Origin: Cyanobacteria bacterium M_surface_10_m2_119
GTDB taxonomy: Bacteria; Cyanobacteriota; Cyanobacteriia; PCC-6307; Cyanobiaceae
Direction of reading: 5' to 3'
NCBI GenBank assembly: GCA_016882525.1
Contig: VGPU01000014.1
Coordinates: 1-48,898 of the forward strand
Length of the DNA: 48,898 nt
A program made the translations under genes and the position numbers. Within the stretch, counting starts at the first letter, position 1. Every line of letters starts with the position of its first letter. The notes below the pieces were generated by a model that did no database searches, had not been told where the DNA came from, and saw only the letters and a list, made by a program, of their open reading frames with translations. Positions 7,947 through 46,589 of this stretch are shown here, in pieces.

Positions 7947-10118
7947 ATGGCCAGCGCTCCCGCCTCCAGCCCGACCGCCCGGGCCCAATGCCCCTACTGC
8001 GGCGTGGGCTGCGGCCTGGAGCTCAAAGCACCGGCTGAATCCGGACGAGGCAACAGCCCGGACGCGCACGGCACCTGGACCGCCCGCGGCGACCGCCACC
8101 ACCCCTCCTCCCTCGGCCAGGTGTGCGTGAAGGGGGCCACCGTGGGCGAAACCCTGCACCACAACCGCCTCACCACCCCCCTCTGGCGCGCACGCACCGA
8201 TCAGCCCTTCGCGGCGATCAGCTGGGAGCGGGCCTTCTCGATCCTGGTGGAGCGCATCCAGGCCACCCTGGCCCGCAAGGGGCCGCAGGCGCTGGCGATC
8301 TACGGCTCCGGCCAGTTCCTCTGCGAGGACTACTACGCGGCCAACAAGTTGCTTAAGGGCGCCCTGGGCAGCAACAACTTCGATGCCAACTCGCGCCTGT
8401 GCATGAGCTCGGCGGTGGCCGGCTACGCCCGCAGCCTCGGCTCCGACGGGCCGCCCTGCTGCTACGACGATCTCGACCTGGCCGAGCTGGTGCTGCTGAT
8501 CGGCACCAACACGGCCGAGTGCCATCCGGTGCTGTTCCAGCGGCTGCTCAAGCGCCGGCGCAAGGGCGAGGGGCCGCGGCTGGTGGTGGTGGATCCGCGC
8601 GCCACGGCCACCAGCGATGCGGCCGATCTGCACCTGGCGATCGCCCCCGGCACCGACCTGGCCCTGCTCTGCGGCCTGGGCCACCTGCTGCTGGAGCAAG
8701 GCGGCGTGGATCAGGCCTTTGTGGCGGCCCACACCGAGGGCTTCGCGGAGCTGGAAATCCTCTGGCGGGCCTGGACGCCGGCGCGGGCGGAGGCGGTGTG
8801 CGGCATCGCCGAGGCCGACCTGCGCCAGCTGGCCGCCTGGTGGTGCGAGGCCAGCGCGGTGCTGAGCCTCTGGTCGATGGGGGTGAACCAGAGCCGCGAG
8901 GGCACCGCGACGGTGGCGGGGATCTGCAACCTGCACCTAGTGAGCGGCCAGATCGGCAAACCCGGCGCCGGGCCCTTCTCGCTCACCGGCCAGCCCAACG
9001 CCATGGGCGGCCGCGAGGTGGGCGGCCTGGCCCAGCTACTGCCGGGTTATCGCGCCGTGGCTAACCCGGAGCACCGGGCCGCGGTGGAGCGCCACTGGGG
9101 TTTCGCAGCTGGCTCGATCGATCCTGAGCCCGGCCTGGCGGTGTGGCAGCAGATCGAAGCGATGGAGCGCGGTGAGCTCGACCTCTGGTGGGTGGCCGCG
9201 ACCAATCCGCTGGTGAGCATGCCGAGCCTGGACCGGGTGCGGGCGGCGGTGGCGGCCTGCCCCCTGGTGGTGCTGAGCGAGGCCTATGCCGGCACCGAAA
9301 CCGAAGCGGTGGCCCATCTGGTGTTGCCGGCGGCCCAGTGGAGTGAGAAGGAGGGCGTGATGGTGAACTCCGAGCGCCGCGTCACCCTCTGCCGTGCCTT
9401 CCGTCCGCCCCCGGGTGAGGCCCGGCCCGACTGGGCGATCTTCGCCGAGCTCGGCCATCGCCTGGGATTCGCGGAGCAGTTCGGCTGGCGCGATGCCGGC
9501 GAGGTGTATGCCGAGTTCGTGGCGCTCACCGCCGGTCGGATGTGCGACAGCAGCGGCCTCAGCCATGCCCTGCTTGCCGACCACGGCCCCCAGCAGTGGC
9601 CCTTCTCCGCCGGCACCGAACCGGGCGGCGGCCAGGCGCGGCTCTACACCGACCACCACTTCCCCACCCCCTCCGGCCGGGCCCGTCTCTGGGCCGATCC
9701 GCCGCTCGGGCTGGCCGAACCCCCCGACGCGGAATTCCCCCTGGTGCTCACCGTGGGCCGGGTGCTGGGCCACTGGCACACCATGACCCGCACGGTCCAC
9801 GTGGCCCGCGTCGCCAAGGCCCACCCCGAACCCCTGCTGGAGGTGCACCCCCACGATGCCGCCCGCGCCGGCCTGGTGGAGGGCGGTGAGGCCCAGGTGC
9901 GCTCCCGCCGCGGTGTCCTCAGGGTGAAGCTGCTGCTCACCGAGCGCATCCGCCCTGGCACGGTGTTTCTGCCGATGCATTGGGGCGCCTCCCAGGGGGA
10001 GCTGGCCTGCGAGGCCAACCGGCTGATGCACGAGCTGGCCTGTCCGATCTCCCAGCAGCCGGAATTGAAGGGGGCGGCTGTCTGTCTGCAGCCTTTGGCG
10101 GAGGCGACAGCCCGATGA
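7947..10118 (+). CDS. narB: assimilatory nitrate reductase NarB (ferredoxin type)
   Basis: Reduces nitrate to nitrite in the cytoplasm with reduced ferredoxin as donor. 723 residues, the usual length of cyanobacterial NarB. It begins with the [4Fe-4S] motif 'CPYCGVGCGLE' (about residues 14-24), completed by the Cys in 'GQVCVKGATVGE' near residue 63. The expected Mo-ligand cysteine lies in 'SRLCMSSAVAGYARSLGSDG' (about 149-168). The C-terminal molybdopterin-dinucleotide-binding domain starts near 'TVGRVLGHWHTMTRTVHV' (about 600). The ATG at 7947 is chosen over an upstream TTG because it lies close to the first Cys motif. Its stop overlaps the next gene. Confidence 0.96.
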   Translation: MASAPASSPTARAQCPYCGVGCGLELKAPAESGRGNSPDAHGTWTARGDRHHPSSLGQVCVKGATVGETLHHNRLTTPLWRARTDQPFAAISWERAFSILVERIQATLARKGPQALAIYGSGQFLCEDYYAANKLLKGALGSNNFDANSRLCMSSAVAGYARSLGSDGPPCCYDDLDLAELVLLIGTNTAECHPVLFQRLLKRRRKGEGPRLVVVDPRATATSDAADLHLAIAPGTDLALLCGLGHLLLEQGGVDQAFVAAHTEGFAELEILWRAWTPARAEAVCGIAEADLRQLAAWWCEASAVLSLWSMGVNQSREGTATVAGICNLHLVSGQIGKPGAGPFSLTGQPNAMGGREVGGLAQLLPGYRAVANPEHRAAVERHWGFAAGSIDPEPGLAVWQQIEAMERGELDLWWVAATNPLVSMPSLDRVRAAVAACPLVVLSEAYAGTETEAVAHLVLPAAQWSEKEGVMVNSERRVTLCRAFRPPPGEARPDWAIFAELGHRLGFAEQFGWRDAGEVYAEFVALTAGRMCDSSGLSHALLADHGPQQWPFSAGTEPGGGQARLYTDHHFPTPSGRARLWADPPLGLAEPPDAEFPLVLTVGRVLGHWHTMTRTVHVARVAKAHPEPLLEVHPHDAARAGLVEGGEAQVRSRRGVLRVKLLLTERIRPGTVFLPMHWGASQGELACEANRLMHELACPISQQPELKGAAVCLQPLAEATAR

Positions 10119-10876
10119 CGCGCCTGCTGGTGCTTCAGCATCTGGAGCGGGAGGGGCCGGGCCTGTTTGCGCTGGAGGCGGCCCGCCGAGGCTGGCCGAT
10201 CCGCACCGTGCGTCTCGACCGGGGTGAGCCTCTTCCGCCTCTCGAGCCCGACGATCTCTTGCTCGTGCTCGGTGGACCCATGGGGGTGGCCGATCTGGGG
10301 GATCCGGCCTACCCCTGGCTGGAGGGGGAAGTGGGCTTGCTGCGCCAGGCCCTCGAGCGCCAGCAGCCGTTGGTCGGTGTCTGCCTCGGGGCCCAGCTGC
10401 TTGCCCTTGCCGCCGGTGGCACGGCCATTCCCCTGCAGGTGGGCGAGCCGCCCCGGCCCCTGCGGGAGGTGGGTTTCGGGGCCATCAGCTGGTGTCACGA
10501 TCCTGCGGTCGTCCCCTGGCTGCGGGGGCTGGCCGCCAGTGAACTGGTGCTGCACTGGCACGGCGACCGCTGCGTGCTGCCGCCTGGGGCCGAGCTGCTG
10601 GCCAGCACTCTCCACTGCCGGGAGCAGGCCTTTCGCATCGGTGCGCGGGCGGTGGGGCTGCAGTTCCACGTGGAGCTCCTGCCAGAACAGCTGGAGCAGT
10701 GGCTGCACCACGACAGCGACTATGTGCTCGGTGCCCTCGGGCCCGCTGGGGTGGAGCGCATCCGCGCCGACGCCGAGCGCTGGGGTGTTCGGGTGGCCCG
10801 GCAGGGCCAGCGGTTGATCGCCAACCTCCTGGATCTGCTCACGGATCAGTCCACGTCGTGGGCGAAGCGGCGGTAA
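10115..10876 (+). CDS. class I glutamine amidotransferase-like protein
   Basis: A 253-residue single-domain class I glutamine amidotransferase homologue. The oxyanion strand 'LLVLGGPMGVADL' (about residues 48-60), the nucleophile elbow 'VGVCLGAQLLAL' with Cys near 91, and 'VGLQFHVELLPEQ' with the catalytic His and Glu near 185-187 are all present. The acceptor substrate is unknown; related proteins are often annotated as GMP-synthase-like. ATG overlaps the narB stop (ATGA), so it is probably cotranscribed with narB, but no nitrate-related role is established. It overlaps nrtD by 31 bases, tail to tail. Confidence 0.85.
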   Translation: MTRLLVLQHLEREGPGLFALEAARRGWPIRTVRLDRGEPLPPLEPDDLLLVLGGPMGVADLGDPAYPWLEGEVGLLRQALERQQPLVGVCLGAQLLALAAGGTAIPLQVGEPPRPLREVGFGAISWCHDPAVVPWLRGLAASELVLHWHGDRCVLPPGAELLASTLHCREQAFRIGARAVGLQFHVELLPEQLEQWLHHDSDYVLGALGPAGVERIRADAERWGVRVARQGQRLIANLLDLLTDQSTSWAKRR

Positions 10877-30209: not shown

Positions 30210-31922
<1,713 letters not shown>

Positions 31923-34925: not shown

Positions 34926-35525
<600 letters not shown>

Positions 35526-35586
35526 GAATTCCTTTCTCAGCGTTTCAGAACCCAGCGGGATGCTTTTGGTCGCCGTCTGGGATTTA

Positions 35587-35628
35587 GTTACAATAGATAC
35601 ACTAGTGTGCTGTGGTGATCCGTAGTTT
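35587..35628 (+). promoter_or_regulatory. probable NtcA-dependent promoter of urtA
   Basis: GTTACAATAGATAC (35587-35600) is one base from GTA-N8-TAC, and TAGTTT (35623-35628) matches TAN3T after exactly 22 bases. The predicted start near 35635 leaves a 42-base leader before urtA. This 150-base gap is clearly more AT-rich than the surroundings, as expected of a strong promoter region. Confidence 0.6.
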
Positions 35629-35676
35629 GCGTAAGCCGGTAGATACACGGCACCATCTCCATTTAGACGACGACAC

Positions 35677-36969
35677 ATGATGCTCAGTCCTTCCAGACGT
35701 CTCGCCGTTGGTGCAACTGCCGGCGCGATGTCCCTGTCCCTCGTTGCCTGTGGCGGTGGCGGTAGCGGCGGCAACTTTGATGGCGAAATTAAAGTCGGCA
35801 TCCTCCACTCCCTGAGTGGCACGATGGCCATCTCCGAAACCACCCTCAAGGAAGTTGAGGAAATGGCGATCAAGGAGATCAACGACGCTGGTGGCGTGAA
35901 CGTTGCTGGCAAGAAGTACAAGATCACCCCAATCGCTGAAGATGGTGCCTCTGACTGGCCCACCTTTGCCGAGAAGTCGCAGAAGCTGATCGATGCGGAC
36001 AAGGTCGCCGTGGTGTTCGGCGGCTGGACATCGGCCAGCCGCAAGGCGATGATGCCTGTCTATGAGTCGAAAAACCACATTCTCTTCTACCCCATCCAGT
36101 ATGAGGGTCAGGAGTGTTCCAAGAACATCTTCTATACCGGCGCTGTTCCCAATCAGCAGGCTGAGCCTGCTGTGGATTGGCTGATGAAGAATTTCAGCGA
36201 CAAGTATGGCAAGAAGGTTTACCTGGTTGGTTCAGATTACGTTTATCCGCGAACCGCCAACACCATCATCAAGGAGCAGATGAAGGCCCTGGGCGGTGAG
36301 ACCGTTGGTGAGGACTATATTCCTCTCGGCAATACCGAGGTGGCTCCGATCATTGCCAAGATCAAGAAAGCCTTCCCCGATGGCGGCATCATCATCAACA
36401 CCCTGAATGGCGACTCCAACGTTGCCCTGTTCAAGCAGTTCAAGGCCGCCGGTATCGATCCGGCTAAGTATCCGATCATGTCCTTCTCGATTGCCGAGGA
36501 GGAGATCCGCCAGATCGGACCTGAGTACACCACCGGCACCTATGCTGCCTGGAACTTCTTTATGAGCCTGGACACCCCAGCGTCCAAGAAGTTCACGGAA
36601 GACTTCCAGGCCATGTATGGCAAGGAGCGCGTGACCGGTGATCCGGCCGAATCTGCCTACAACATGGTGTATCTCTGGAAGAACGCCGTGGAGAAGGCTG
36701 GCACCTTCGAGGATCTTGACAAGGTGCGCAACGCTATGATCGGCATCAAGTTCGCCTCTCCCCAGGGCGAAATCGAGATGTTCCCGAACCACCACACCTC
36801 GGAGCGGGTGCTGATCGGCGAAGCTTCCGCTGATGGCCAGTTCAAGATTCTCGAAGATTCCGGGAAGGCCATTCCGCCAATCCCCTGGAACCAGTTCGTG
36901 CCGGAAACTAAGGGCTACACCTGCGACTGGACGCAAAACCGTCCGGACGCCGGCAAGTTCAAGATGTGA
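35677..36969 (+). CDS. urtA: urea-binding lipoprotein UrtA
   Basis: Periplasmic urea-binding protein of the branched-chain-amino-acid-type ABC importer, 430 residues. The N-terminus has a signal with lipobox 'SLSLVACGGG' (Cys 25), followed by 'IKVGILHSLSGTMAISETTL' (about 38-57) and 'FPDGGIIINTLNGDSNVALF', typical of UrtA rather than amino-acid-binding relatives. Its codons are less GC-rich than those of neighbours, consistent with strong expression of a solute-binding protein. A second ATG follows immediately after the first. Confidence 0.97.
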   Translation: MMLSPSRRLAVGATAGAMSLSLVACGGGGSGGNFDGEIKVGILHSLSGTMAISETTLKEVEEMAIKEINDAGGVNVAGKKYKITPIAEDGASDWPTFAEKSQKLIDADKVAVVFGGWTSASRKAMMPVYESKNHILFYPIQYEGQECSKNIFYTGAVPNQQAEPAVDWLMKNFSDKYGKKVYLVGSDYVYPRTANTIIKEQMKALGGETVGEDYIPLGNTEVAPIIAKIKKAFPDGGIIINTLNGDSNVALFKQFKAAGIDPAKYPIMSFSIAEEEIRQIGPEYTTGTYAAWNFFMSLDTPASKKFTEDFQAMYGKERVTGDPAESAYNMVYLWKNAVEKAGTFEDLDKVRNAMIGIKFASPQGEIEMFPNHHTSERVLIGEASADGQFKILEDSGKAIPPIPWNQFVPETKGYTCDWTQNRPDAGKFKM

Positions 36970-37049: not shown

Positions 37050-38207
37050 GTGGAACTTTTCTTCTCTCAGATTTTGGACGGCGTCAGCATTGGCTCCGTG
37101 CTGCTGGTGTCTGCCACGGGTCTGGCCATTGTCTTTGGTCTGATGGGCGTCATCAACCTCGCCCATGGCGAGTTCATGATGCTCGGCGCCTATGTCACCT
37201 TCGTGGTGCAATCCATCTTCAAGCCGATGGGTGGGGTGTTGTTCGAGCTGTATTTCCCGATCGCCCTGGTGGCCGCCTTCGTGGTCACGGCCTTGGTGGG
37301 TGTGCTGCTGGAGAGAACCCTGATCCGCCAGCTCTATGGCAGACCGCTGGAAACCTTGCTCGCCACCTGGGGGGTGAGCCTGATCATGGTGCAGCTGATC
37401 CGCAGTGTCACCACCGCCATGATCGCCGCGATCGTGGCCGGGGTGCTGCTTGGACTACTGGCCGTGCGTTTTCTCGCCGCCAGGTTTGCCGAGTACCCCT
37501 TCTTCCCCTATCTGCGCGGCGTGGTGTGGGCCGCCGCCCTTGGCGTGGGCCTCGCAATTAATGGGGCCCTCGCTAGCGTTCGCCCCCTGGCCAGCGCCTG
37601 GTTTGGCCCGCGCAACATCGATGTCACCGCCCCCAAATGGCTTCAGGGCAGCTGGGGCAAGATCGCCGGCATCGAACTGCCCGGCATCCGCATCTTCATC
37701 ATTCTGCTGTCGGTTGCTCTGCTGCTAGCGATGCTCTGGTTCCTGCGCAAGAGCGTGTGGGGTCTGCGCATGCGCGCCGTCACCCAGAACCGCCAGATGA
37801 GCAATTGCCTCGGCATCCCCACCGACCGGGTCGACAGCATCACCTTCGGGATCGGCTCCGGCCTAGCCGGCGTGGCCGGCGTCGGCATTACCCTGCTGGG
37901 TTCGGTAGGTCCGAACCTCGGTGCCGCTTACATCGTGTCATGCTTCATGGTGATCGTACTAGGTGGGGTGGGCAACCTCACCGGCACGGTGATCGCCTCA
38001 TTGCTGCTCGGCATCCTTCAATCGGTGATCGGCTCCGGCTCAATCCTGATCGCCTTCCCCGATCTGCCCGCCAGCGTGAAGGGTGTGGTGGAATTCTTTG
38101 CCACCACCAGCATGTCGCTGGTGTTGGTGTTTACCTTCATCATCGCCTTCCTGCAGTTTCGTCCTAACGGCATGTTCCCCCAAAAGGGGCGTTCCGTTGA
38201 GGTCTGA
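37050..38207 (+). CDS. urtB: urea ABC transporter permease UrtB
   Basis: A LivH-type permease of 385 residues with many hydrophobic helices. Landmarks are 'LFFSQILDGVSIGSVLLVSA' at the start, 'FGLMGVINLAHGEFMMLGAY' (about 29-48) and 'RMRAVTQNRQMSNCLGI' (about 240-256), the cytoplasmic loop. The start is GTG at 37050. Separated from urtA by 80 bases with a hairpin. Confidence 0.95.
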   Translation: MELFFSQILDGVSIGSVLLVSATGLAIVFGLMGVINLAHGEFMMLGAYVTFVVQSIFKPMGGVLFELYFPIALVAAFVVTALVGVLLERTLIRQLYGRPLETLLATWGVSLIMVQLIRSVTTAMIAAIVAGVLLGLLAVRFLAARFAEYPFFPYLRGVVWAAALGVGLAINGALASVRPLASAWFGPRNIDVTAPKWLQGSWGKIAGIELPGIRIFIILLSVALLLAMLWFLRKSVWGLRMRAVTQNRQMSNCLGIPTDRVDSITFGIGSGLAGVAGVGITLLGSVGPNLGAAYIVSCFMVIVLGGVGNLTGTVIASLLLGILQSVIGSGSILIAFPDLPASVKGVVEFFATTSMSLVLVFTFIIAFLQFRPNGMFPQKGRSVEV

Positions 38208-38246: not shown

Positions 38247-39377
38247 TTGAAAAACTTCAAACGCCTGCTTCCCTGGATCCTGCTGGCGATCGCTTTTTTC
38301 ATCCTCCCGGCAATCCTCGACGATTTCCGTCTCAACCTCTTCGGCCGCTACTTCTCCCTGGCCATCACAGCCCTGGCGATCGATCTGATCTGGGGTTACA
38401 CCGGCCTGCTTAGCCTCGGCCAGGGCATTTTCTTCTCGCTCGGTGGTTACGCTGTAGCGATGCACCTGATGCTCAACACCAAGAGTGAGGCAGGCGGCAA
38501 TGGCATTCCCAAGTTTTTCGAGAACTACGGTGTGGATCAGCTGCCGTTCTTCTGGCAGCCCTTCTGGTCGCCAATGTCCACGCTGATACTGCTCTGGCTG
38601 GTGCCGGCCGTCGTGGCTGGTCTGGTGGGCTATCTGATCTTCAGGAACCGCATCAAAGGTGTGTATTTTTCGATCATCACCCAGGCGGCTCTGATGGTCT
38701 TCTATCACTTCTTCAACGGCCAACAGAAGCTGATCAACGGCACCAATGGTCTCAAAACCAGCACCACTGAAATCTTCGGGCAGCTGGTTGGTTCTCCTGA
38801 CCTGCAGGGCTGGTTCTACCGCATCACGGTGCTGTTGCTGCCGCTGGCGTTCCTGGCCTGCCGATACTTCACCAGCGGCCGCTTCGGCGATGCACTGATC
38901 GCCATCCGAGACGACGAGGTTCGCTTGCGCTTCACCGGCTTCAACACGGTGCCCTACAAAACCATCGTGTTCATCGTGGCCGGTCTGCTCTGCGGGGTTT
39001 CGGGTGCGCTCTATACCGTTCAGTCGGGTATCGTGTCGCCCCAGTACATGACGATCGCCATGTCGATCGAAATGGTGATCTGGGTCGCTGTGGGCGGCCG
39101 GGGCACCCTGGTGGGCCCGATCATCGGCGCAGTGCTGGTGAACTATCTGCGCAGCCTTGTGAGCGAGGCGCTGCCTGAGATGTGGTTGTTCGTGCAGGGG
39201 GCGCTCTTCATCTTCGTGGTGGTGTTGATGCCCGATGGCATTTATGGCTGGTTCACCAAGGGCGGCTTCACCCGCCTTCTGGCCGCCTTCGGTTTGGCGC
39301 CCCGCACGGCCACCTACCCCCAGCTCGATTTGGAGGTGGCCCCGGCCAGCGAGGGCCGCGTGATCTCCAACGACTGA
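38247..39377 (+). CDS. urtC: urea ABC transporter permease UrtC
   Basis: A LivM-type permease of 376 residues with the typical N-terminal 'LAIDLIWGYTGLLSLGQGIF' (about 43-62) and the conserved loop 'FGDALIAIRDDEVRLRFTGF' (about 212-231). The start is TTG at 38247 ('KNFKRLLPWILL'), since no nearby ATG is in frame before the first helix. It lies 39 bases after urtB and forms the membrane channel with it. Confidence 0.94.
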   Translation: MKNFKRLLPWILLAIAFFILPAILDDFRLNLFGRYFSLAITALAIDLIWGYTGLLSLGQGIFFSLGGYAVAMHLMLNTKSEAGGNGIPKFFENYGVDQLPFFWQPFWSPMSTLILLWLVPAVVAGLVGYLIFRNRIKGVYFSIITQAALMVFYHFFNGQQKLINGTNGLKTSTTEIFGQLVGSPDLQGWFYRITVLLLPLAFLACRYFTSGRFGDALIAIRDDEVRLRFTGFNTVPYKTIVFIVAGLLCGVSGALYTVQSGIVSPQYMTIAMSIEMVIWVAVGGRGTLVGPIIGAVLVNYLRSLVSEALPEMWLFVQGALFIFVVVLMPDGIYGWFTKGGFTRLLAAFGLAPRTATYPQLDLEVAPASEGRVISND

Positions 39378-39416: not shown

Positions 39417-40163
39417 ATGACCACCCCCTTGCTTGAGATCGACGACGTCAGCGTCAGCTTCGATGGCTTCTTCGCCCTCACGGATTTCTCGCTGCGCCTG
39501 ATGCCGGGTGAGCTCCGCTCGGTGATCGGACCCAACGGCGCTGGCAAGACCACCTTTCTCGATGTGATCACCGGCAAGGTGAAGCCCCTCAAGGGGAGCG
39601 TCACCTTCCGAGGTGAGACCCTGGTGGGCCTGAGCGAGCACAAGATTTCCCAGCTGGGCATCGGCCGCAAGTTCCAGACACCGCGCGTGTTCGAGAACCT
39701 CGAGGTGATCCGCAACCTCGAGCTTGCGGCCTCCCCCTCCAAGGGCCCCTTCGCGCTGCTCACCCAGGGCATTCCGTCCAGGGTGCGCGATGAGGTGCAG
39801 CGCCTTCTCGACTACGTTGGCCTTGGCCCCTATGCCAAGGTGCAGGCCGGCTCCCTTTCCCACGGCCAGAAGCAGTGGCTGGCGATCGCCATGCTGGTGG
39901 CCCAGTCGCCTCAGGTGCTGCTGCTTGATGAGCCGGTGGCCGGTCTCACTGACGAGGAGACGGTGCGCACCGCCGAGCTGATCAAATCCCTCGCGGGAGA
40001 TCACACCGTGCTGGTCATCGAGCACGACATGGAGTTCATCCGCGACCTGAACGCCTCCGTGACCGTTCTGCACCAGGGCAGCGTGCTCACCGAGGGGAGC
40101 CTTGATGAGGTGCAGAACGATCCCCGCGTGATCGAGGTGTATCTCGGCCAGGCCGAGGACTGA
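39417..40163 (+). CDS. urtD: urea ABC transporter ATPase UrtD
   Basis: LivG-type ATPase of 248 residues. Walker A 'GPNGAGKTTFLDVI' (about 38-51), signature 'LSHGQKQWLAIAML' (about 148-161), Walker B 'VLLLDEPVAGLT' and switch His 'VIEHDMEFI'. The His in place of Gly in the signature (LSHGQ) is common in UrtD. ATG at 39417; 39 bases after urtC. Confidence 0.95.
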   Translation: MTTPLLEIDDVSVSFDGFFALTDFSLRLMPGELRSVIGPNGAGKTTFLDVITGKVKPLKGSVTFRGETLVGLSEHKISQLGIGRKFQTPRVFENLEVIRNLELAASPSKGPFALLTQGIPSRVRDEVQRLLDYVGLGPYAKVQAGSLSHGQKQWLAIAMLVAQSPQVLLLDEPVAGLTDEETVRTAELIKSLAGDHTVLVIEHDMEFIRDLNASVTVLHQGSVLTEGSLDEVQNDPRVIEVYLGQAED

Positions 40164-40200: not shown

Positions 40201-40944
40201 ATGATCAGCCAAGCTCCGGCACCGGCCACCGCCCGCGGCACGCTCCTGCGGGTGAGCGGTGTGAATGTGTACTACGGCGAGAGCCACATCCTGCGCAACG
40301 TGGATCTCAAGATCCCCGAAGGCGAAATGGTCTGCCTGATCGGTCGCAATGGTGTGGGCAAGACCACCTTCCTCAAGACGTTGATTGGCCTGCTGCATCA
40401 CAAGTCCGGCACCATCGACTATGAGGGCAGCCAGCTGCTGAGCGAGCCGCCTTACCAGCGGGCGCGCCGCGGCATCGGCTACGTATCCCAGGGGCGGGAC
40501 ATCATTCCCCAGCTCACGGTGAAGGAGAACCTGCTGCTAGGCATGGAGGCCCTGCCCGGCGGCCTGGCCCGCAACCGCCACATTGATCCACTGGTGTTCG
40601 ATCTGTTCCCGATCCTCGAGAAGTTCCTGGCCCGCAAGGGTGGCGACCTCAGCGGCGGCCAGCAGCAGCAGCTTGCCATCGCCCGTGCCTTGCTCGGCAA
40701 GCCCAAGCTGCTGCTGCTCGATGAGCCCACCGAGGGCATCCAGCCCTCGGTCATTCTCGACATCGAGCGGGCCGTGCATCGCATCATGAATGAGACGGGC
40801 ATCAGCGTGTTGCTGGTGGAGCAGCACCTGCACTTTGTGCGCCAGTCGAGCTACTACTACGCCATGCAGCGTGGTGGCATCGTGGCCAGCGGCCCCACCA
40901 CCAGCCTCAGCGATGCGGTGGTGAAGGAGTTCCTCACGGTGTGA
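40201..40944 (+). CDS. urtE: urea ABC transporter ATPase UrtE
   Basis: LivF-type ATPase of 247 residues. Walker A 'GRNGVGKTTFLKTL' (about 49-62), 'GYVSQGRDIIPQLTVKENLL' (about 94-113), signature 'LSGGQQQQLAIARAL' (about 151-165) and Walker B 'LLLLDEPTEGIQPS'. The C-terminus 'SYYYAMQRGGIVASG' to 'VVKEFLTV' can be aligned to a separate urtE fragment at 43512-43607. Last gene of urtABCDE, followed by a strong terminator. Confidence 0.96.
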   Translation: MISQAPAPATARGTLLRVSGVNVYYGESHILRNVDLKIPEGEMVCLIGRNGVGKTTFLKTLIGLLHHKSGTIDYEGSQLLSEPPYQRARRGIGYVSQGRDIIPQLTVKENLLLGMEALPGGLARNRHIDPLVFDLFPILEKFLARKGGDLSGGQQQQLAIARALLGKPKLLLLDEPTEGIQPSVILDIERAVHRIMNETGISVLLVEQHLHFVRQSSYYYAMQRGGIVASGPTTSLSDAVVKEFLTV

Positions 40945-40983: not shown

Positions 40984-41022
40984 AAAGCCCCGGTCTGCTC
41001 AGCGGCAGACCGGGGCTTTTTG
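40984..41022 (+). terminator. Rho-independent terminator after urtE
   Basis: A perfect 15-base-pair stem AAAGCCCCGGTCTGC (40984-40998) / GCAGACCGGGGCTTT (41005-41019), six-base loop, and T-run ending at 41021. It ends the urt operon 40 bases after urtE. The A-run on the left also gives a partial terminator for the convergent fmdB transcript. Confidence 0.93.
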
Positions 41023-41053: not shown

Positions 41054-41326
41054 TCAGCAGTCGCGGTTCAGCATCCAGGGACGGGTGCCGCTGGCCTCGC
41101 GCAGGCGCGGTTTGGATTCGCTGCCCACGGTCTTACGCACCATGCGCGGTTCGCTGCTCTCCACCTTCAGCCGCAGCGGGCCGCAGAGTGACATCGGCGG
41201 GCTGAACACCCGGTTGCCGGCTTCGCCGCAGGCGGGGCACTCGGTGGCGGTGCGGCGCTCGCTAATTGAGCGCCACACCTCATAGTTTTCACAGCCGTTG
41301 CTGCAGCTGAATTCGTAAACGGGCAC
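41054..41326 (-). CDS. FmdB-family zinc ribbon protein
   Basis: A 90-residue small protein with an N-terminal zinc ribbon, 'PVYEFSCSNGCENYEVWRSI' followed by 'ECPACGEAGNRVFSPP': two Cys pairs (C8/C12 and C31/C34, roughly). Members of this family often sit next to formamidase genes and are annotated as putative regulators; their function is not proven. The start is GTG at 41326, at the canonical N-terminus. It lies downstream of fmdA with a hairpin between. Confidence 0.85.
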   Translation of the reverse strand: MPVYEFSCSNGCENYEVWRSISERRTATECPACGEAGNRVFSPPMSLCGPLRLKVESSEPRMVRKTVGSESKPRLREASGTRPWMLNRDC

Positions 41327-41384
41327 TGGAGGGAAAGGGGCGAGTGGAAGTGGTCGGCGGGAAGGGCTGCGGCCTGGGCCATGG

Positions 41385-41424
41385 AAAAGGGACCATGGGT
41401 TCCCCACGCGAGGGGCCATGGTCC
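41385..41424 (-). terminator. hairpin between fmdA and fmdB
   Basis: The 9-base inverted repeat GGACCATGG (41390-41398 and 41416-41424) encloses a second stem CCCC/GGGG, and on the minus strand is followed by TTTT (41388-41385). It could terminate most fmdA transcripts or attenuate fmdB. Confidence 0.6.
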
Positions 41425-41439
41425 TGTGACTCGTGCCGC

Positions 41440-42645
41440 TCAGCGGGGCAGGATGTCCTGGTCGAAGATGCTGGTGGGCAGGGCCAGGGTGGCGCAGGCA
41501 TTGGGGATGTCCACGATGCCGCTGATCCTGCCCTCCACCGGGGCGCAGCTGAGCAGCAGGTAGGCCTGCTCGCCGGTGTAGCCGAACCGCTTCAGGTATT
41601 CGATGGCGTTGAGGCAGGCACGCCGGTAGGCGATGTGCACATCCATGTAGTATTGCTTGCCCTCGAACTCATCCACAGAGATGCCTTCGAACACCAGGTA
41701 GTCGGTGTAGTGGGGTTCCACCGGGCTGGTCTTGAACATCGGATTGACCATCCCATACTTCGCCATGCCGCCCTTGATGATCTCGACGTGGAGGTCGAGA
41801 TAGCCGGACATCTCGATGGCGCCGCAGAAGGAGATCTCGCCATCCCCCTGGGAGAAGTGGATGTCGCCCATCGAGAGTTTCGCCCCTTCCACATACACCG
41901 GGAAGTAGATGCGGGTGCCCTTGGTGAGGTTCTTGATGTCGCAGTTTCCGCCGTGCTCCCTGGGCGGCACCGTGCGGGCTGCTTCGTTGGCCACCCGCTC
42001 GAACTCGCTGGCGGGGAGGGTGCCGAGGATGGCGCTGTTGGGATTGGGCAGGGCCGCCAGCACCGGCTCGCTGCCGGAGAGGCCGGCGCCGTAGGTGCGG
42101 CGGTCGGGGGCGGTCTTCACCAGCTCCGTCTCGCGACGGTTCCATTCGTTCAGCAGCTCCTGGGAGGGGGCGCAGCCGATCAGGCCAGGGTGGGTGATAC
42201 CCGCGAAACGGACACCGGGAATGTGGCGGGAGGAGGTGTAGATGCCTTCGAGATCCCAGATGGCCTTGGCGGCCTTGGGGTAGTGATCAGTGAGGAAGCC
42301 GCCACCGTTCTCCTTGGCGAAGATGCCCGTGAAGCCCCACTCATCCCCCTGCAGGGCGCCGACATCGAGAATGTCGACCACCAAGATGTCGCCGGGCTGG
42401 GCGCCGTTGACCCAGATCGGGCCGCTCAGGACGTGAACAACCTCGAGATTCACATCCTCGATGTCCTTTGGATCGTCATTGTTCTTGATCTGGCCATCGG
42501 TCCAGTCCTTGCATTCGATTCGGAACACATCTCCAGGATTCACCGATGCCACGGCAGGGATGTCTGGATGCCAGCGGTTGTGCCCGGGCATGTCCTGCTG
42601 ATCCATCGGCTTGGTGAGATCAACGGAAAAAAGTGTTTTGGGCAT
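41440..42645 (-). CDS. fmdA: formamidase/acetamidase
   Basis: A 401-residue FmdA/AmdA-family amidase that hydrolyses formamide or short aliphatic amides to ammonia and acid in the cytoplasm. The N-terminal 'KTLFSVDLTKPM' and 'GHNRWHPDIPAVASVNPGD' (about 21-39), 'VLSGPIWVNGAQPGDILVVD' (about 72-91), 'FAGITHPGLIGCAPS' and 'YFPVYVEGAKLSMGD' are typical. The substrate (formamide or other) cannot be told from sequence. It sits next to the urea transporter and has a strong NtcA-type promoter, supporting a nitrogen-scavenging role. Confidence 0.93.
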   Translation of the reverse strand: MPKTLFSVDLTKPMDQQDMPGHNRWHPDIPAVASVNPGDVFRIECKDWTDGQIKNNDDPKDIEDVNLEVVHVLSGPIWVNGAQPGDILVVDILDVGALQGDEWGFTGIFAKENGGGFLTDHYPKAAKAIWDLEGIYTSSRHIPGVRFAGITHPGLIGCAPSQELLNEWNRRETELVKTAPDRRTYGAGLSGSEPVLAALPNPNSAILGTLPASEFERVANEAARTVPPREHGGNCDIKNLTKGTRIYFPVYVEGAKLSMGDIHFSQGDGEISFCGAIEMSGYLDLHVEIIKGGMAKYGMVNPMFKTSPVEPHYTDYLVFEGISVDEFEGKQYYMDVHIAYRRACLNAIEYLKRFGYTGEQAYLLLSCAPVEGRISGIVDIPNACATLALPTSIFDQDILPR

Positions 42646-42807: not shown

Positions 42808-43293
42808 TCAGGTGTCGTTGAAATCACCTTTGCGGCAGAGATTATCCTTCAATCGAGAGACCCAAGCGCTCGGGTCCAGCGTGCCTATTTGTTCGGTGCG
42901 ACCATCAAAATGGAAAAGAAATTGCCAGCGATCCTTGTTTAGAGATGTACTCTGGGCGTTGAGATCACTGATCGGATCTCCGTAGATGTTGTCATAAACC
43001 TGCCAGCCTGGCTCTCCCTCGATGCTGCAGATTGCAGTGGTTTCATACATCTGGCCCTTGGCGTCACCGGCTCTTGAGGTGACCTTCACGACACCCTTGT
43101 GCAGCCCATTGGCAATGCCCGGCCTGAACGCCCGCACCAGCTCAACCCGACTGCCCTCGGTCTCTACCAGCAGGTCGCCCGGTTTTGCGTTCTGAATCGC
43201 CACTTCCTTAGGGGTGGAGCTGCACCCGGCCAAGGCGAGGCCTGCACAGGCCAGGAGTCCTGCCAGGTGCTTCCGAGCCAACAGACCCCCCAC
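42808..43293 (-). CDS. lipoprotein of unknown function
   Basis: A protein of about 161 residues with a lipoprotein signal 'LAGLLACAGLALAGCSSTP' (lipobox LAGC, Cys near 24). The mature part contains 'KPGDLLVETEGSRVELV' and 'TTAICSIEGEPGWQVYDN', with 'DNLCRKGDF' near the end; two further cysteines may pair. No family recognised. The start GTG at 43293 gives a compact signal; a longer in-frame start at 43404 would add an unlikely 37 residues. It is codirectional with fmdA; no promoter seen. Confidence 0.7.
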   Translation of the reverse strand: MGGLLARKHLAGLLACAGLALAGCSSTPKEVAIQNAKPGDLLVETEGSRVELVRAFRPGIANGLHKGVVKVTSRAGDAKGQMYETTAICSIEGEPGWQVYDNIYGDPISDLNAQSTSLNKDRWQFLFHFDGRTEQIGTLDPSAWVSRLKDNLCRKGDFNDT

Positions 43294-43337
43294 AGCGTCG
43301 GGCAATGTGATCGATCTACTCTCCAGCCAGCCTATGA

Positions 43338-43511
43338 CTACACCAGTAGCCCCTCCCAGAGCTCTTCGACCCCATCGGGCACGGGCAGGTCGGTGGCGCC
43401 GCAACGCCGGATCGGGCGGGCGCCCAGGCTGTTGATCAGCAGGGCCGCCGCGCTCTCCAGCAGGCCCGCCACAGACAGCCGCTCCTCCCGCACCAGCCCT
43501 AGGGCCAGGCC
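43338..43511 (-). pseudogene. 3' remnant of a second pabC-like gene
   Basis: The minus strand encodes 'GLALGLVREERLSVAGLLES' then 'AAALLINSLGARPIRRCG' and 'VEELWEGLLV' before a TAG (43340-43338). This matches the C-terminal part of class IV aminotransferases and aligns with the intact PabC encoded at 43629-44570 ('GALLLNSLSCRPISHLG'), but with a different sequence, so it is a divergent copy rather than a recent duplicate. No N-terminal part exists: at 43512 the sequence changes abruptly to the urtE remnant on the other strand. Confidence 0.82.
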
Positions 43512-43607
43512 GACTGGTACTACGCCAAGCAGAAGGGCGGGGTGGTGGCCAGTGGCTCCACCAGCGACCTCAGCAAGGACGTGGTGGAGCGCTTCCTGAG
43601 CGTCTGA
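43512..43607 (+). pseudogene. 3' remnant of a second urtE gene
   Basis: The plus strand encodes 'DWYYAKQKGGVVASGSTSDL' then 'SKDVVERFLSV' and a stop at 43605-43607, an evident match to the UrtE C-terminus encoded at 40201-40944 ('YYYAMQRGGIVASG', 'VVKEFLTV'). Only 31 codons survive, with no start. It faces the intact pabC 21 bases away, as expected if urtE and pabC once were convergent neighbours here. Confidence 0.85.
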
Positions 43608-43628
43608 CCAGGCCGGCGGCTGCCGGCC

Positions 43629-44570
43629 TCAGCTGATCCCGACTTGCAGCAGTCGCTGCCACAGGGCCTTGGCCTCGGCGGCGGCGCTGCCCGCTCCGGC
43701 TGACGCCCCTGCCCATCCCAGGGGCGTCTCGCCCAGGTGGCTGATCGGCCGGCAGCTCAGGCTGTTCAGCAGCAGGGCGCCGCTGCTGTGGTGCAGCGCA
43801 GCTTCGCCCAGAGCCCCCAGGCCGGCCTCCTGCGCCAGTCCCAGCTCCAGGGCCCGGGCGCGCATCACCCCGGGCAGGCAGCCGCTGGCCAGCGGCGGGG
43901 TGAGCCAGCGCCCCTCCTGCCGCACCAGCAGGGTGGCGGCGGTGCCGCAGCAGAGGCCCCCGGCGCTGCTGGCCAGCAGCGCGTCGTCGGCCCCGGCCGC
44001 TTCGGCCTGGCGCCGGGCCTGGATCGCCGGTCCGTAGGCGAAGGTCTTGCAGCGGCTGAGCAGGCTGGTGGCGCTGCGCACTTCCGTGGGGCTCACGATC
44101 ACCCGCACCGGCTCGAAGGTGGGGGTGGCAGCGCTGAGCTGCAGCCAGAAGCGGTGGCGGCAGCGCTCCGGGATGCCGATGCCCCGGCTTGCCCTGCCAG
44201 CTGAGCCCCGGCTCCAGTTGAGCCGGAGGGCTCCCTGCCGGATGCCGCTGCGCTGCACCGCCTCGTCGATCAGCGGCGCCAGCTGGGCGGCGGTGGGTGG
44301 CGCCTCCATCCCCAGCAGCGCCGCGCCCTGGCGCCAGCGCGCCAGGTGCGCCGTCAGGAGCCGGGCTCGGCCGTCGCTCACCATCAGTGTTTCAAACAGG
44401 CCATCCGCCAGCAGCAGGCCCCGATCGTCGAGGGGTAGGGCCAGCGCCGCGGGGTCCCCCCAGCACCCCCGAGCCTCCGGGCTGTCGATCCAGGCGATCG
44501 CGGTGCTGGCGGCTGGGTGGGGCATCGGGGCGGTTGACCGGGGGCGGTGCAGGGGCGGTTCAGGAGACAT
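43629..44570 (-). CDS. pabC: aminodeoxychorismate lyase-like class IV aminotransferase
   Basis: PLP enzyme of fold type IV, 313 residues, probably converting aminodeoxychorismate to p-aminobenzoate. Visible are 'GLLLADGLFETLMVSDGRAR' (about 51-70), the PLP Lys region 'LLSRCKTFAYGPAIQARR' (about 174-191), and 'SGCLPGVMRARALELGLA' (about 232-249). The start at 44570 overlaps the pabB stop; an ATG at 44525 is an alternative. Last gene of a queC-pabB-pabC run. Confidence 0.85.
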   Translation of the reverse strand: MSPEPPLHRPRSTAPMPHPAASTAIAWIDSPEARGCWGDPAALALPLDDRGLLLADGLFETLMVSDGRARLLTAHLARWRQGAALLGMEAPPTAAQLAPLIDEAVQRSGIRQGALRLNWSRGSAGRASRGIGIPERCRHRFWLQLSAATPTFEPVRVIVSPTEVRSATSLLSRCKTFAYGPAIQARRQAEAAGADDALLASSAGGLCCGTAATLLVRQEGRWLTPPLASGCLPGVMRARALELGLAQEAGLGALGEAALHHSSGALLLNSLSCRPISHLGETPLGWAGASAGAGSAAAEAKALWQRLLQVGIS

Positions 44571-45897
44571 GCGCGCCGCTCAGGGCCTGCAGCAGCGGTT
44601 GCAGTTTCCAGCCGAGTTCCTCGGCCTCCGCCATCGGGTCGGAGTCGGCGACGATGCCGCAGCCCGCGTGGGCACGCAGCCGGCGCCCCTGCACGAACAG
44701 CGATCGGATCAGGATGTTGCTGTCCAGGCCCCCGCGGCCATCGAGCCGGAACAGGCTGCCGCAGTAGGCATCCCGGGCCACCGGCTCCAGGCCGCTGAGC
44801 CGCTGGCAGGCGCGGATCTTGGGAGCACCGGTGATCGATCCCCCCGGCCAGCAGGCCCGCAGCAGCTCCGCCGCCCCCAGGCCGGCGCGCAGCTGCCCCT
44901 GCACCACCGAGGTGAGGTGATGCACCTGGCTGTAGCTCTCCAGCCCCACCAGCTGCGGCACCTGCACCGAACCGGGACGGCACACCCGGCCCAGGTCGTT
45001 GCGCAGCAGATCCACGATCATCACGTTCTCCGCCCGGTCCTTGGGGCTGCTCACCAGCTCGGCCGCCGCCGCGGCATCGGCCCGGGGGTCGCGGTGGCGG
45101 GGACGGGTGCCCTTGATCGGTCGGGTTTCCACCAGCCCCTGGGGATCCAGCTGCAGGAAGCGCTCGGGTGAGGCCGAGAGGATCGCTTCCCCTGCCGCCG
45201 CCACTCCAGCGATGGCCAGGCCGGCGAAGGGGGCCGGGCAGTGGCGGCGCAGCCGGCCGTAGAGCGCCAGCAGGCTCTCGGTATCGGCGGGGCTGTCGAG
45301 CCACTGCTCGCAGCAGGCGGTGAGGTTGGCCTGAAACAGATCCCCCGCGGCGATCCAGGCCTGCAGCCGCCGCACCCCCTCCGCAAAACCGGCCGGATCG
45401 GTGTGCCAGCGCCAGCCCTCCAGCGGCACCGCGATGCCCTCTGGAAGGGCCCGGGGCTGGCAGGCCTGGATCCGGGCGGCCAGCCGCGCCAGCCGCTCCG
45501 GGTCGTGGCCTTCGAGCCACAGCTGCCGCTGGCGGTGGTCGAACACCAGCACCGGGTCGGCCTTCATGGCCCAGAGCTGGGCCATCTCCGGCTCGGGCCA
45601 GTGCGCGCCAGGCTCCAGCCAGGCGCCGGCCCCGTAGCCCAGCCAACCCAGCCAGGCTCCCCCCTCCGCTTCCAGTTCGGCCAGCACGGCAAACGGGTCG
45701 GCGCTGCCGGGCTGATGCGGCAGCCCGCGGCACACCCGCTCCTCCAGGGGTTCCACGGCCAGCACGCTGCGCGCTCCCTGGGCAGAGCCATCGCCGTCCA
45801 GCCACACCAGTCCGGATCGCTCCAGGTCCGGCAGCAGGGCGGCCAGCAGGGACAGGGGGTCGCACCAGGGAAGGTGCTGGCGCAGCACAGGACTCAT
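44560..45897 (-). CDS. pabB: aminodeoxychorismate synthase component I
   Basis: Chorismate-binding enzyme of about 445 residues. Signature blocks: '[13 protein letters not shown]' (about 279-291), whose 'PIKGT' Lys is characteristic of PabB rather than TrpE, '[20 protein letters not shown]' (about 305-324), '[14 protein letters not shown]' and '[12 protein letters not shown]' (about 359-370). It makes aminodeoxychorismate for folate synthesis with a glutaminase partner not found in this window. ATGA overlap with queC; pabC follows. Confidence 0.92.
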
Positions 45898-46589
45898 GCT
45901 GGCGCGCTGCCGGTGGCCCCACTGGCCAGATCCGGCCGGCCGGCCTGGATCAGGGCGGCGTCGCGGATGCGGCAGCTGTCACAGCGGCCACAGGGCACGG
46001 CTCCGCCGCTGTAGCAGCTCCAGGTGCTGGCGATCGGCACCTCCAGCCGCAGGGCCTCCTGCACGATCTGGGTCTTGCTCCAGCGCACCAGCGGCGCCCA
46101 CAACGCGGTGCCATGGCCTTCCCGCCCCGCCTTGCTGGCCAGATCGGCCAGGGTCTGGAAGGCATCGAGATAGTCGGGCCGGCAGTCGGGATAGCCGGAA
46201 TAGTCGACGGCGTTCACGCCGAGCACCAGCCGCTCGGCCGCGCGGGCCTCCGCCAGGCTCAGCCCCAGGGCGATGAACACCGTGTTGCGGCCCGGCACGT
46301 AGGTGCTGGGGATCACCCCCTCCTGCAACCCGTCGCTGGGAACGGGAATGGCGGTGTCGGTGAGGGCGGACCCCCCCCAGGCGGCCAGGTTCACGGCGAT
46401 CGTGTGGTGCTCCACCAGCCCCAGGCTCCGGGCCACGCTGGCGGCGGCCTCCAGCTCCCGCCGGTGGCGCTGGCCGTAATCCAACGACAGGCCGATCACC
46501 TGATACCCGGCCTCGATGGCCAGGGCCGCGGCCGTGGCCGAATCCAGGCCGCCGGAGAGCAGGGCGATGGCGGTGGGCTGGGGGGACAT
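45894..46589 (-). CDS. queC: 7-cyano-7-deazaguanine synthase QueC
   Basis: Makes preQ0 from 7-carboxy-7-deazaguanine and ammonia with ATP, for queuosine synthesis. 231 residues with the PP-loop '[15 protein letters not shown]' (about 10-24), '[17 protein letters not shown]' (about 94-110) and the Zn site '[15 protein letters not shown]' (about 195-209). It overlaps pabB by four bases. Its pathway partner queE lies nearby at 47284-47934. Confidence 0.95.

Follow-up and report, generated by a model that had tools for sequence, protein, structure and literature searches.

The window, which is the whole analyzed stretch of 48,898 nucleotides from a cyanobacterial draft genome, carries a urea-transport operon (urtABCDE) that follows the urease accessory gene ureG and is itself followed by genes for an fmdB-like protein, a formamidase (fmdA) and a putative lipoprotein (LP). 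Between LP and an intact pabC, which is in turn followed by pabB and queC, the 3' ends of a second pabC and a second urtE lie back to back. The operon occurs in the family in two versions, type 1 and type 2, which are distinguished by their UrtB proteins (see below). The features of the locus are, in window coordinates:

34926..35525, plus strand: ureG, left native flank (TIGR00101, E = 2.2e-96)
35526..35676: spacer between ureG and urtA, the left edge of the import, placed only to this interval
35677..36969, plus strand: urtA, type 2, imported (TIGR03407)
37050..38207, plus strand: urtB, type 2, imported (TIGR03409)
38247..39377, plus strand: urtC, type 2, imported (TIGR03408)
39417..40163, plus strand: urtD, type 2, imported (TIGR03411)
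40201..40944, plus strand: intact urtE, type 2, imported (TIGR03410)
41054..41419, minus strand: gene for an fmdB-like zinc-ribbon protein (PF09723, E = 3.7e-8)
41420..41500: approximate position within the imported block at which G249-like sequence gives way to g6-main-like sequence
41440..42645, minus strand: fmdA, formamidase (NF045496, E = 1.9e-203)
42808..43404, minus strand: LP, putative lipoprotein open reading frame
43338..43512, minus strand: remnant, 3' end of a donor-type pabC (about 57 codons and the stop codon)
43504..43512: junction microhomology GCCAGGCCG
43504..43607, plus strand: remnant, 3' end of a native type-1 urtE (31 codons and the stop codon)
43629..44570, minus strand: intact pabC, native right flank (PF01063, E = 1.6e-47)
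44560..45897, minus strand: pabB, native flank (PF00425)
45894..46589, minus strand: queC, native flank (TIGR00364), included in the flank tree

The PF09723 match of the fmdB-like protein scores 33.7 bits, slightly below the gathering score of 34.4 bits. A Pfam search of the LP reading frame (42808-43266) found no family, and its real start probably lies downstream of 43404. A perfect 15-nt inverted repeat at 40984-41019, in the interval that separates urtE from the fmdB-like gene convergent with it, resembles a terminator. The Rfam model of the 5' ureB sRNA (RF02514) matches positions 31481-31771, antisense to ureC, with a score of 124 bits, which possibly reflects coding conservation only.

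Comparisons were made with 13 genomes of the window's own genus (g1), the window's own included, and with a family survey of 400 genomes, again including the window's own. The genus g6 is taken here to be Cyanobium. All trees are quick trees with SH-aLRT support only. The draft genome yielded one match each for UrtE (E <= 1e-60), PabC (E <= 1e-15) and FmdA (E <= 1e-30); at these cut-offs it holds no second full urtE, pabC or fmdA, i.e., the native urt copy has been lost.

Two gene-end remnants and their junction

The initial annotation read the gap between LP and pabC as the ends of a second PabC on the minus strand and of a second UrtE on the plus strand, which is borne out by translation and by homology matches. 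Positions 43338-43514 translate on the minus strand into 58 residues of a PabC C-terminus and a stop codon, and positions 43512-43607 translate on the plus strand into 31 residues of a UrtE C-terminus and a stop codon. No domain was found in either fragment by a Pfam search; in a translated search, as proposed at the outset, and in a nucleotide search, the two match pabC and urtE genes of other genomes at levels not due to chance.

The urtE remnant matches urtE in nine of the 12 other own-genus genomes at 83-94% nucleotide identity (best match E = 2.6e-40), the best relative being G010 (94% over 104 bp); no match was obtained in the own-genus genomes G003, G005 and G007. At the protein level it is 81-87% identical to the urtE product of six own-genus genomes, whereas it shares only 18 of 31 residues (58%) and 64 of 93 bases with the resident urtE. 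The PabC remnant has matches in 91 of the 400 family genomes, own genome included (E <= 0.001), and the best one outside its own genome has an E-value of 2.5e-23 and an identity of 81%. Amino acid identities in g6 are 81% (G234), 82% (G291), 82% (G100), 77% (G218) and 79% (G180), with nucleotide identities of 85-87% to the same five genomes. Within the own genus the identity is at most 50% over the full length (59% in a shorter, 46-residue match to G010), and the resident pabC reaches 48% over 44 residues. As judged from these identities, the PabC tail is a foreign piece of the g6 (Cyanobium) kind.

Ten own-genus genomes lack an FmdA match. In eight of them urtE and pabC are convergent direct neighbors, and the remaining two could not be assessed (in G002 the contig stops immediately downstream of urtE, and in G007, which is 77% complete, urtE was not matched). 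The former adjacency of urtE and pabC that had been postulated is thus found in the relatives, which also show the orientation in which the urtE remnant faces the intact pabC. Because the two genes are convergent in these fmdA-less relatives and the remnant matches their urtE, it is the end of the native type-1 urtE, still in its native place beside pabC.

The urtE remnant carries a methionine-to-lysine and a proline-to-serine change at sites that are invariant in the 12 relatives compared, which fits the expectation for a functionless piece. Relative to G010 it shows one synonymous and five non-synonymous changes, a ratio that fits decay, the numbers being too small to count alone. Synonymous and non-synonymous counts for the PabC remnant revealed no excess of changes over the donor clade. 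The scar itself is most likely without function.

A spacer-free join near 43511/43512 had been proposed. No spacer was found, but the join cannot be assigned to a single base: instead, the alignment reveals a 9-bp stretch, GCCAGGCCG (43504-43512), that is compatible with both parents. The window follows the g6 pabC up to GGGCCAGGCC and the own-genus urtE from GCCAGGCCGACTGG onward. The stretch GCCAGGCCG is also present in the pabC of G234, G180 and G218 and in the urtE of G010, G008, G001 and G011; the site differs in G291 and G100 on the donor side and in G012 on the recipient side, so that the microhomology relies on the remaining genomes. When breakpoints are paired at random in the same genes, at least 9 bases are shared at a frequency of 2.0e-4 and at least 8 bases at a frequency of 4.8e-4. 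The word itself is common, with nine copies in the window, and its weight therefore depends on its position. The exact 36-bp junction was found in five of 205 fetched loci, all five from the window's own genome.

Affinities of the flanks and of the block between them

The product of ureG is 93-96% identical to that of eight own-genus type-1 genomes and 90-94% identical to g6, and the ureG DNA tree (53 rows) places the window with three own-genus genomes and one genome of g47 (support 96). On the right side, identity of the intact pabC product is 63-74% to eight type-1 genomes of the own genus, 72% to G003, and 58-62% to G005 and five g6 genomes. Identities of the pabB product are 73-76% to G003, G004, G006, G008, G009 and G012, 65-66% to the own-genus genomes G001, G005 and G011, and 63-66% to g6. 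In the flank tree of UreG, PabB and QueC (49 rows) the window groups with six own-genus genomes (support 98); its branches are long and the genus is not recovered as a whole, G005 being placed with g35, and G001 and G011 together lying beyond the group supported by 98.

At the left edge, nucleotide identity to the native genomes is 86-97% in 34926-35425 and 73-81% in 35426-35525, then 28-48% in the next two 100-bp bins, and identity to G249 (a g6 genome) is 53, 77, 84 and 88% in the four bins starting at 35526. The affinity hence switches within the ureG-urtA spacer, beside the conserved ure genes, where no junction is visible.

Among the proteins of the block, UrtA is 93% identical to G249 (67-76% to own-genus type 1), UrtB 91% to G249 (78-81% to the other type-2 genomes of g6, 57-61% to own-genus type 1), UrtC 91% and UrtD 88% to G249, and the intact UrtE 87% to G249 (72-75% to own-genus type 1). 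The fmdB-like protein shows 79% identity to G249 over residues 32-121 and 65-67% to G234, G180, G285 and G226. FmdA is 98-99% identical across the main g6 group, to which LP is 79-84% identical (84% to G180; 48% to G005). In 100-bp bins, identity to G234 and G180 is 91-99% from 41501 to 42600, and none of the earlier bins from 40201 exceeds 87%.

Amino acid matrices and 100- or 200-bp identity bins divide the locus into four zones. The native ure genes are followed by a second zone that extends from the ureG-urtA spacer to approximately 41420-41500 and is closest to G249 of g6 at the protein level; a third zone, from fmdA to 43512, is closest to G234, G180 and their kin, and the native sequence resumes from pabC onward. 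In nucleotide comparison G249 does not lead throughout the urt zone, G234 and G180 being as close or closer in several bins. For those g6 genomes that match fmdA, LP and pabC best, identity in the urt genes is only 75-89%, so that no single donor haplotype was found. The window pairs with G249 in the urtA-E tree (57 rows, support 100), and it groups with five g6 genomes both in the FmdA DNA tree (38 rows, support 98) and in the LP protein tree (38 rows, support 96). In these quick trees the placement of the block disagrees with the placement of either flank.

By identity and by trees, the latter suggested beforehand, the pieces separate by origin, the flanks with the own genus and fmdA and LP with g6. 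The question of which part is foreign is answered by half of the initial annotation: the left block (urt, fmdB, fmdA, LP and pabC tail) is foreign, whereas the intact pabC, offered there as the other candidate, is native, as is the urtE tail. Judged by its nearest relatives, which differ between the urt-fmdB and the fmdA-LP-pabC parts, the imported block is itself mosaic; either the donor was already mosaic or the urt genes may have been exchanged again later.

Besides the window, only G003 and G005 have an FmdA match in the own genus, and their UrtE proteins are the nearest in the genus to the intact UrtE of the window (79 and 85%, others 71-75%). The best matches of the PabC remnant led to 19 fetched regions, 17 of g6 and two of g45. 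All 17 regions of g6 have the order ureG-urtABCDE-fmdB-fmdA-LP-pabC-pabB-queC, as in the imported block; the two regions of g45 have no urt genes beside pabC.

Probable exchange of cassettes at the ureG-pabC address

A UrtB match (E <= 1e-100) is present in 293 of the 400 family genomes, which fall into two groups separated by a gap in E-values from 1e-175 to 1e-138. Type 2 comprises 59 genomes (72-100% identity, window included) and type 1 comprises 234 genomes (at most 61% among the matches listed); between the types, UrtB is approximately 55-61% identical. FmdA occurs in 62 of the 400 genomes, namely in 57 of 59 type-2 genomes versus 0 of 234 type-1 genomes (counted by hand from two tables) and in five genomes without a UrtB match (G070, G081, G120, G136 and G191). 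The two type-2 genomes without FmdA are G334, whose contig ends in urtE, and G284, which is 83% complete. An fmdA match in G217 (C1:2426517-2427716) contains three in-frame stop codons and is apparently a decaying copy.

Both types occur within each of seven genera (g1, g5, g6, g10, g25, g34 and g48), and both share the address ureG-[cassette]-pabC: among eight type-1 loci fetched from g6 and g47, all seven with pabC in view have the order ureG-urt-pabC. The cassette type changes at least five times on the flank tree (47 labeled rows). The eight urea-binding residues of UrtA named in PMC10392092 are identical in all UrtA rows with data (17 of type 1, 39 of type 2; the mapping of S274 is ambiguous between two serines, both invariant), so both types should bind urea, as far as these residues can tell. 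An altered urea pocket in the type-2 UrtA is not supported by these residues.

Scars with both kinds of remnant were found in three of the 34 type-2 loci with pabC in view, i.e., in the window and in the g6 genomes G303 and G366, and represent two lineages, G303 and G366 being sisters in the flank tree (support 100). In G303 (L101, 7732-8594) the interval between LP and the intact pabC holds a pabC tail, pieces of PabB that are most similar to G234 (100% over 22 residues, 77% over 31 residues) and a frameshifted type-1 urtE that starts at residue 79, i.e., its last two thirds; this scar is more decayed than that of the window. G366 (L103, 10109-10251) has the window's arrangement of LP, pabC tail, urtE tail and pabC. 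Its pabC tail (27 residues matched, 10109-10189) is followed directly by the end of a type-1 urtE, about 55-60 bp long and with a 2-bp gap, that reaches the stop codon of the intact pabC. This urtE piece, detected by nucleotide comparison and missed by tblastn, is 85% identical to the G303 remnant over 54 bp (E = 5.8e-14) and scores 59.9 bits versus 27.4 bits for the best of 500 shuffles. When the LP-pabC intervals of the 33 other type-2 loci were compared at the nucleotide level, strong urtE matches appeared in G303 and G366 only, the next best being G273 (34.6 bits over 28 bp). By tblastn, 113 gaps of both types gave matches in G155, G303 and G366 only, and those in G155 seem to be the termini of that genome's own pabC and LP. 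In type-1 loci, tblastn of the urtE-pabC gaps of more than 60 bp found no trace of a swap in the opposite sense (pieces of fmdA, fmdB or LP). A clean swap of the whole cassette is seen between G003 (type 2; L047, L196) and G004 (type 1; L048), which are sisters by their flanks (support 99): identity is 95.3% over the 8094 bp that end at the ureG stop codon, 70.8% in urtA, and 92.1% over 3582 bp that begin about 63 bp into the aligned portion of pabC, where the variable PabC C-terminus could blur the right edge.

It is highly probable that the stretch is the scar of a replacement, in which the native urea-transport operon gave way to the version of another genus. The earlier proposal that foreign or duplicated DNA had left fragments at its edge thus holds for foreign origin and fails for a duplication of resident genes. 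The relatives have ureG-urtABCDE (type 1) with urtE convergent to pabC, and the window has the type-2 urtABCDE-fmdB-fmdA-LP cassette between the same two flanks. Points that weigh against the replacement are the lack of a single donor haplotype, the left edge with no junction in sight, the rarity of such scars (3 of 34 type-2 loci with pabC in view) and the position of G001, G005 and G011 apart from the window in the flank tree. The left end of the incoming DNA may have been anchored by homology in the conserved ure genes; the right end would have been closed by illegitimate joining at the pabC 3' end, because the donor and native pabC (about 60% amino acid identity) are too divergent for homologous exchange. 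An integrase-borne genomic island was rejected: none of the genome's seven matches to PF00589, the one integrase family searched, lies on the window's contig, no tRNA was found in the window, and no direct or inverted words of at least 9 bases are common to 35450-35720 and 43250-43720.

A single step, or two steps in which an insertion beside the native operon is followed by a deletion between short repeats, would leave the same scar. The two-step course, with the type-2 block and further donor DNA inserted first and the deletion occurring between the copies of GCCAGGCCG in the donor pabC and the native urtE, falls within the replacement explanation, and the probabilities assigned to the two are not mutually exclusive; we consider it possible but somewhat doubtful. 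The pabC tail, PabB pieces and two thirds of urtE in G303 are what would be expected from a longer donor stretch that later decayed, but the course needs an extra intermediate, no fetched locus holds complete urtE genes of both types, and no piece of a donor pabB is seen between LP and pabC in the window.

The same junction would result from the opposite direction, in which a type-2 recipient acquired the right side (urtE tail, pabC, pabB and queC) from a type-1 donor of g1. This is very improbable, as both outer flanks group with the own genus (ureG alone and the flanks jointly) and only the middle is foreign. An assembly chimera of two cyanobacteria in a mixed sample, suggested by the draft status (118 contigs, 2.66% estimated contamination) and by the lack of the exact 36-bp junction in any fetched locus outside the window's own genome, is slightly less probable still: the shared stretch of 9 bp is below the usual overlaps of assemblers, own-genus affinity returns on both sides, and the arrangement of LP, pabC tail, urtE tail and pabC recurs in G366. 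A local duplication of the resident urtE and pabC, followed by decay, would account for two urtE ends and two pabC ends side by side, but was rejected as scarcely conceivable, since the remnants are not closest to the resident intact copies (81-87% to six own-genus urtE versus 58% for the urtE remnant, 77-82% to g6 versus 48% over 44 residues for PabC).

In the replacement reading, the seam shows that a whole nutrient-uptake operon was replaced across genera of picocyanobacteria, with the kind of donor, the state of the recipient and the direction readable from the leftovers. It seems evenly balanced to us whether, beyond this case, the address ureG-[cassette]-pabC has long served in the family of Cyanobium for exchange between two states. 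Two old and distinct urt versions, one of them tied to a formamidase, would then replace each other as complete units, inside a genus or from one genus to another, through the ordinary recombination machinery; the ureG end and the 3' end of pabC would serve repeatedly as edges, and a gene-end scar would occasionally be left. The tie between type 2 and formamidase raises the testable question of what purpose the two versions serve. From gene content, a review suggests that the substrates of urtABCDE may include nutrients besides urea (PMC6737895), and amides usable by the formamidase would be an obvious candidate for such further cargo. Urt urea uptake is described as prevalent in picocyanobacteria in PMC11851481, the main text of which contains no word beginning with 'formamid'; a literature search of titles, abstracts and selected passages found no report of a urt/fmdA swap at this locus.

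Three known kinds of event offer a comparison. The term xenologous replacement in situ denotes the replacement of an orthologous operon at its own site by a foreign one. The window resembles it in that address and predicted function are the same, the sequence is foreign and the old copy is lost, but differs in that the cassette adds fmdB, fmdA and LP, i.e., replacement is combined with gain. Homology-facilitated illegitimate recombination, as outlined in PMC3240628, is homologous at one end and illegitimate at the other; similarly, one edge lies here beside conserved ure homology and the other is joined at a 9-bp microhomology between otherwise unrelated sequences, although the event is deduced from a natural genome, the left crossover is placed only to an interval and an origin in two steps is possible. 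In the type VI secretion (T6SS) loci of Vibrio, displaced effector modules leave orphan immunity genes, and a process resembling homology-facilitated illegitimate recombination has been suggested for them (PMC5361080). There, too, the module at a fixed locus is displaced by a new one, and 3' parts of the former module persist; in contrast, the module in the window serves nutrient transport, and what remains of the old one are broken gene ends instead of kept genes. Such swaps are thus known as a kind of event, and in the window the seam of one is readable to nine bases.
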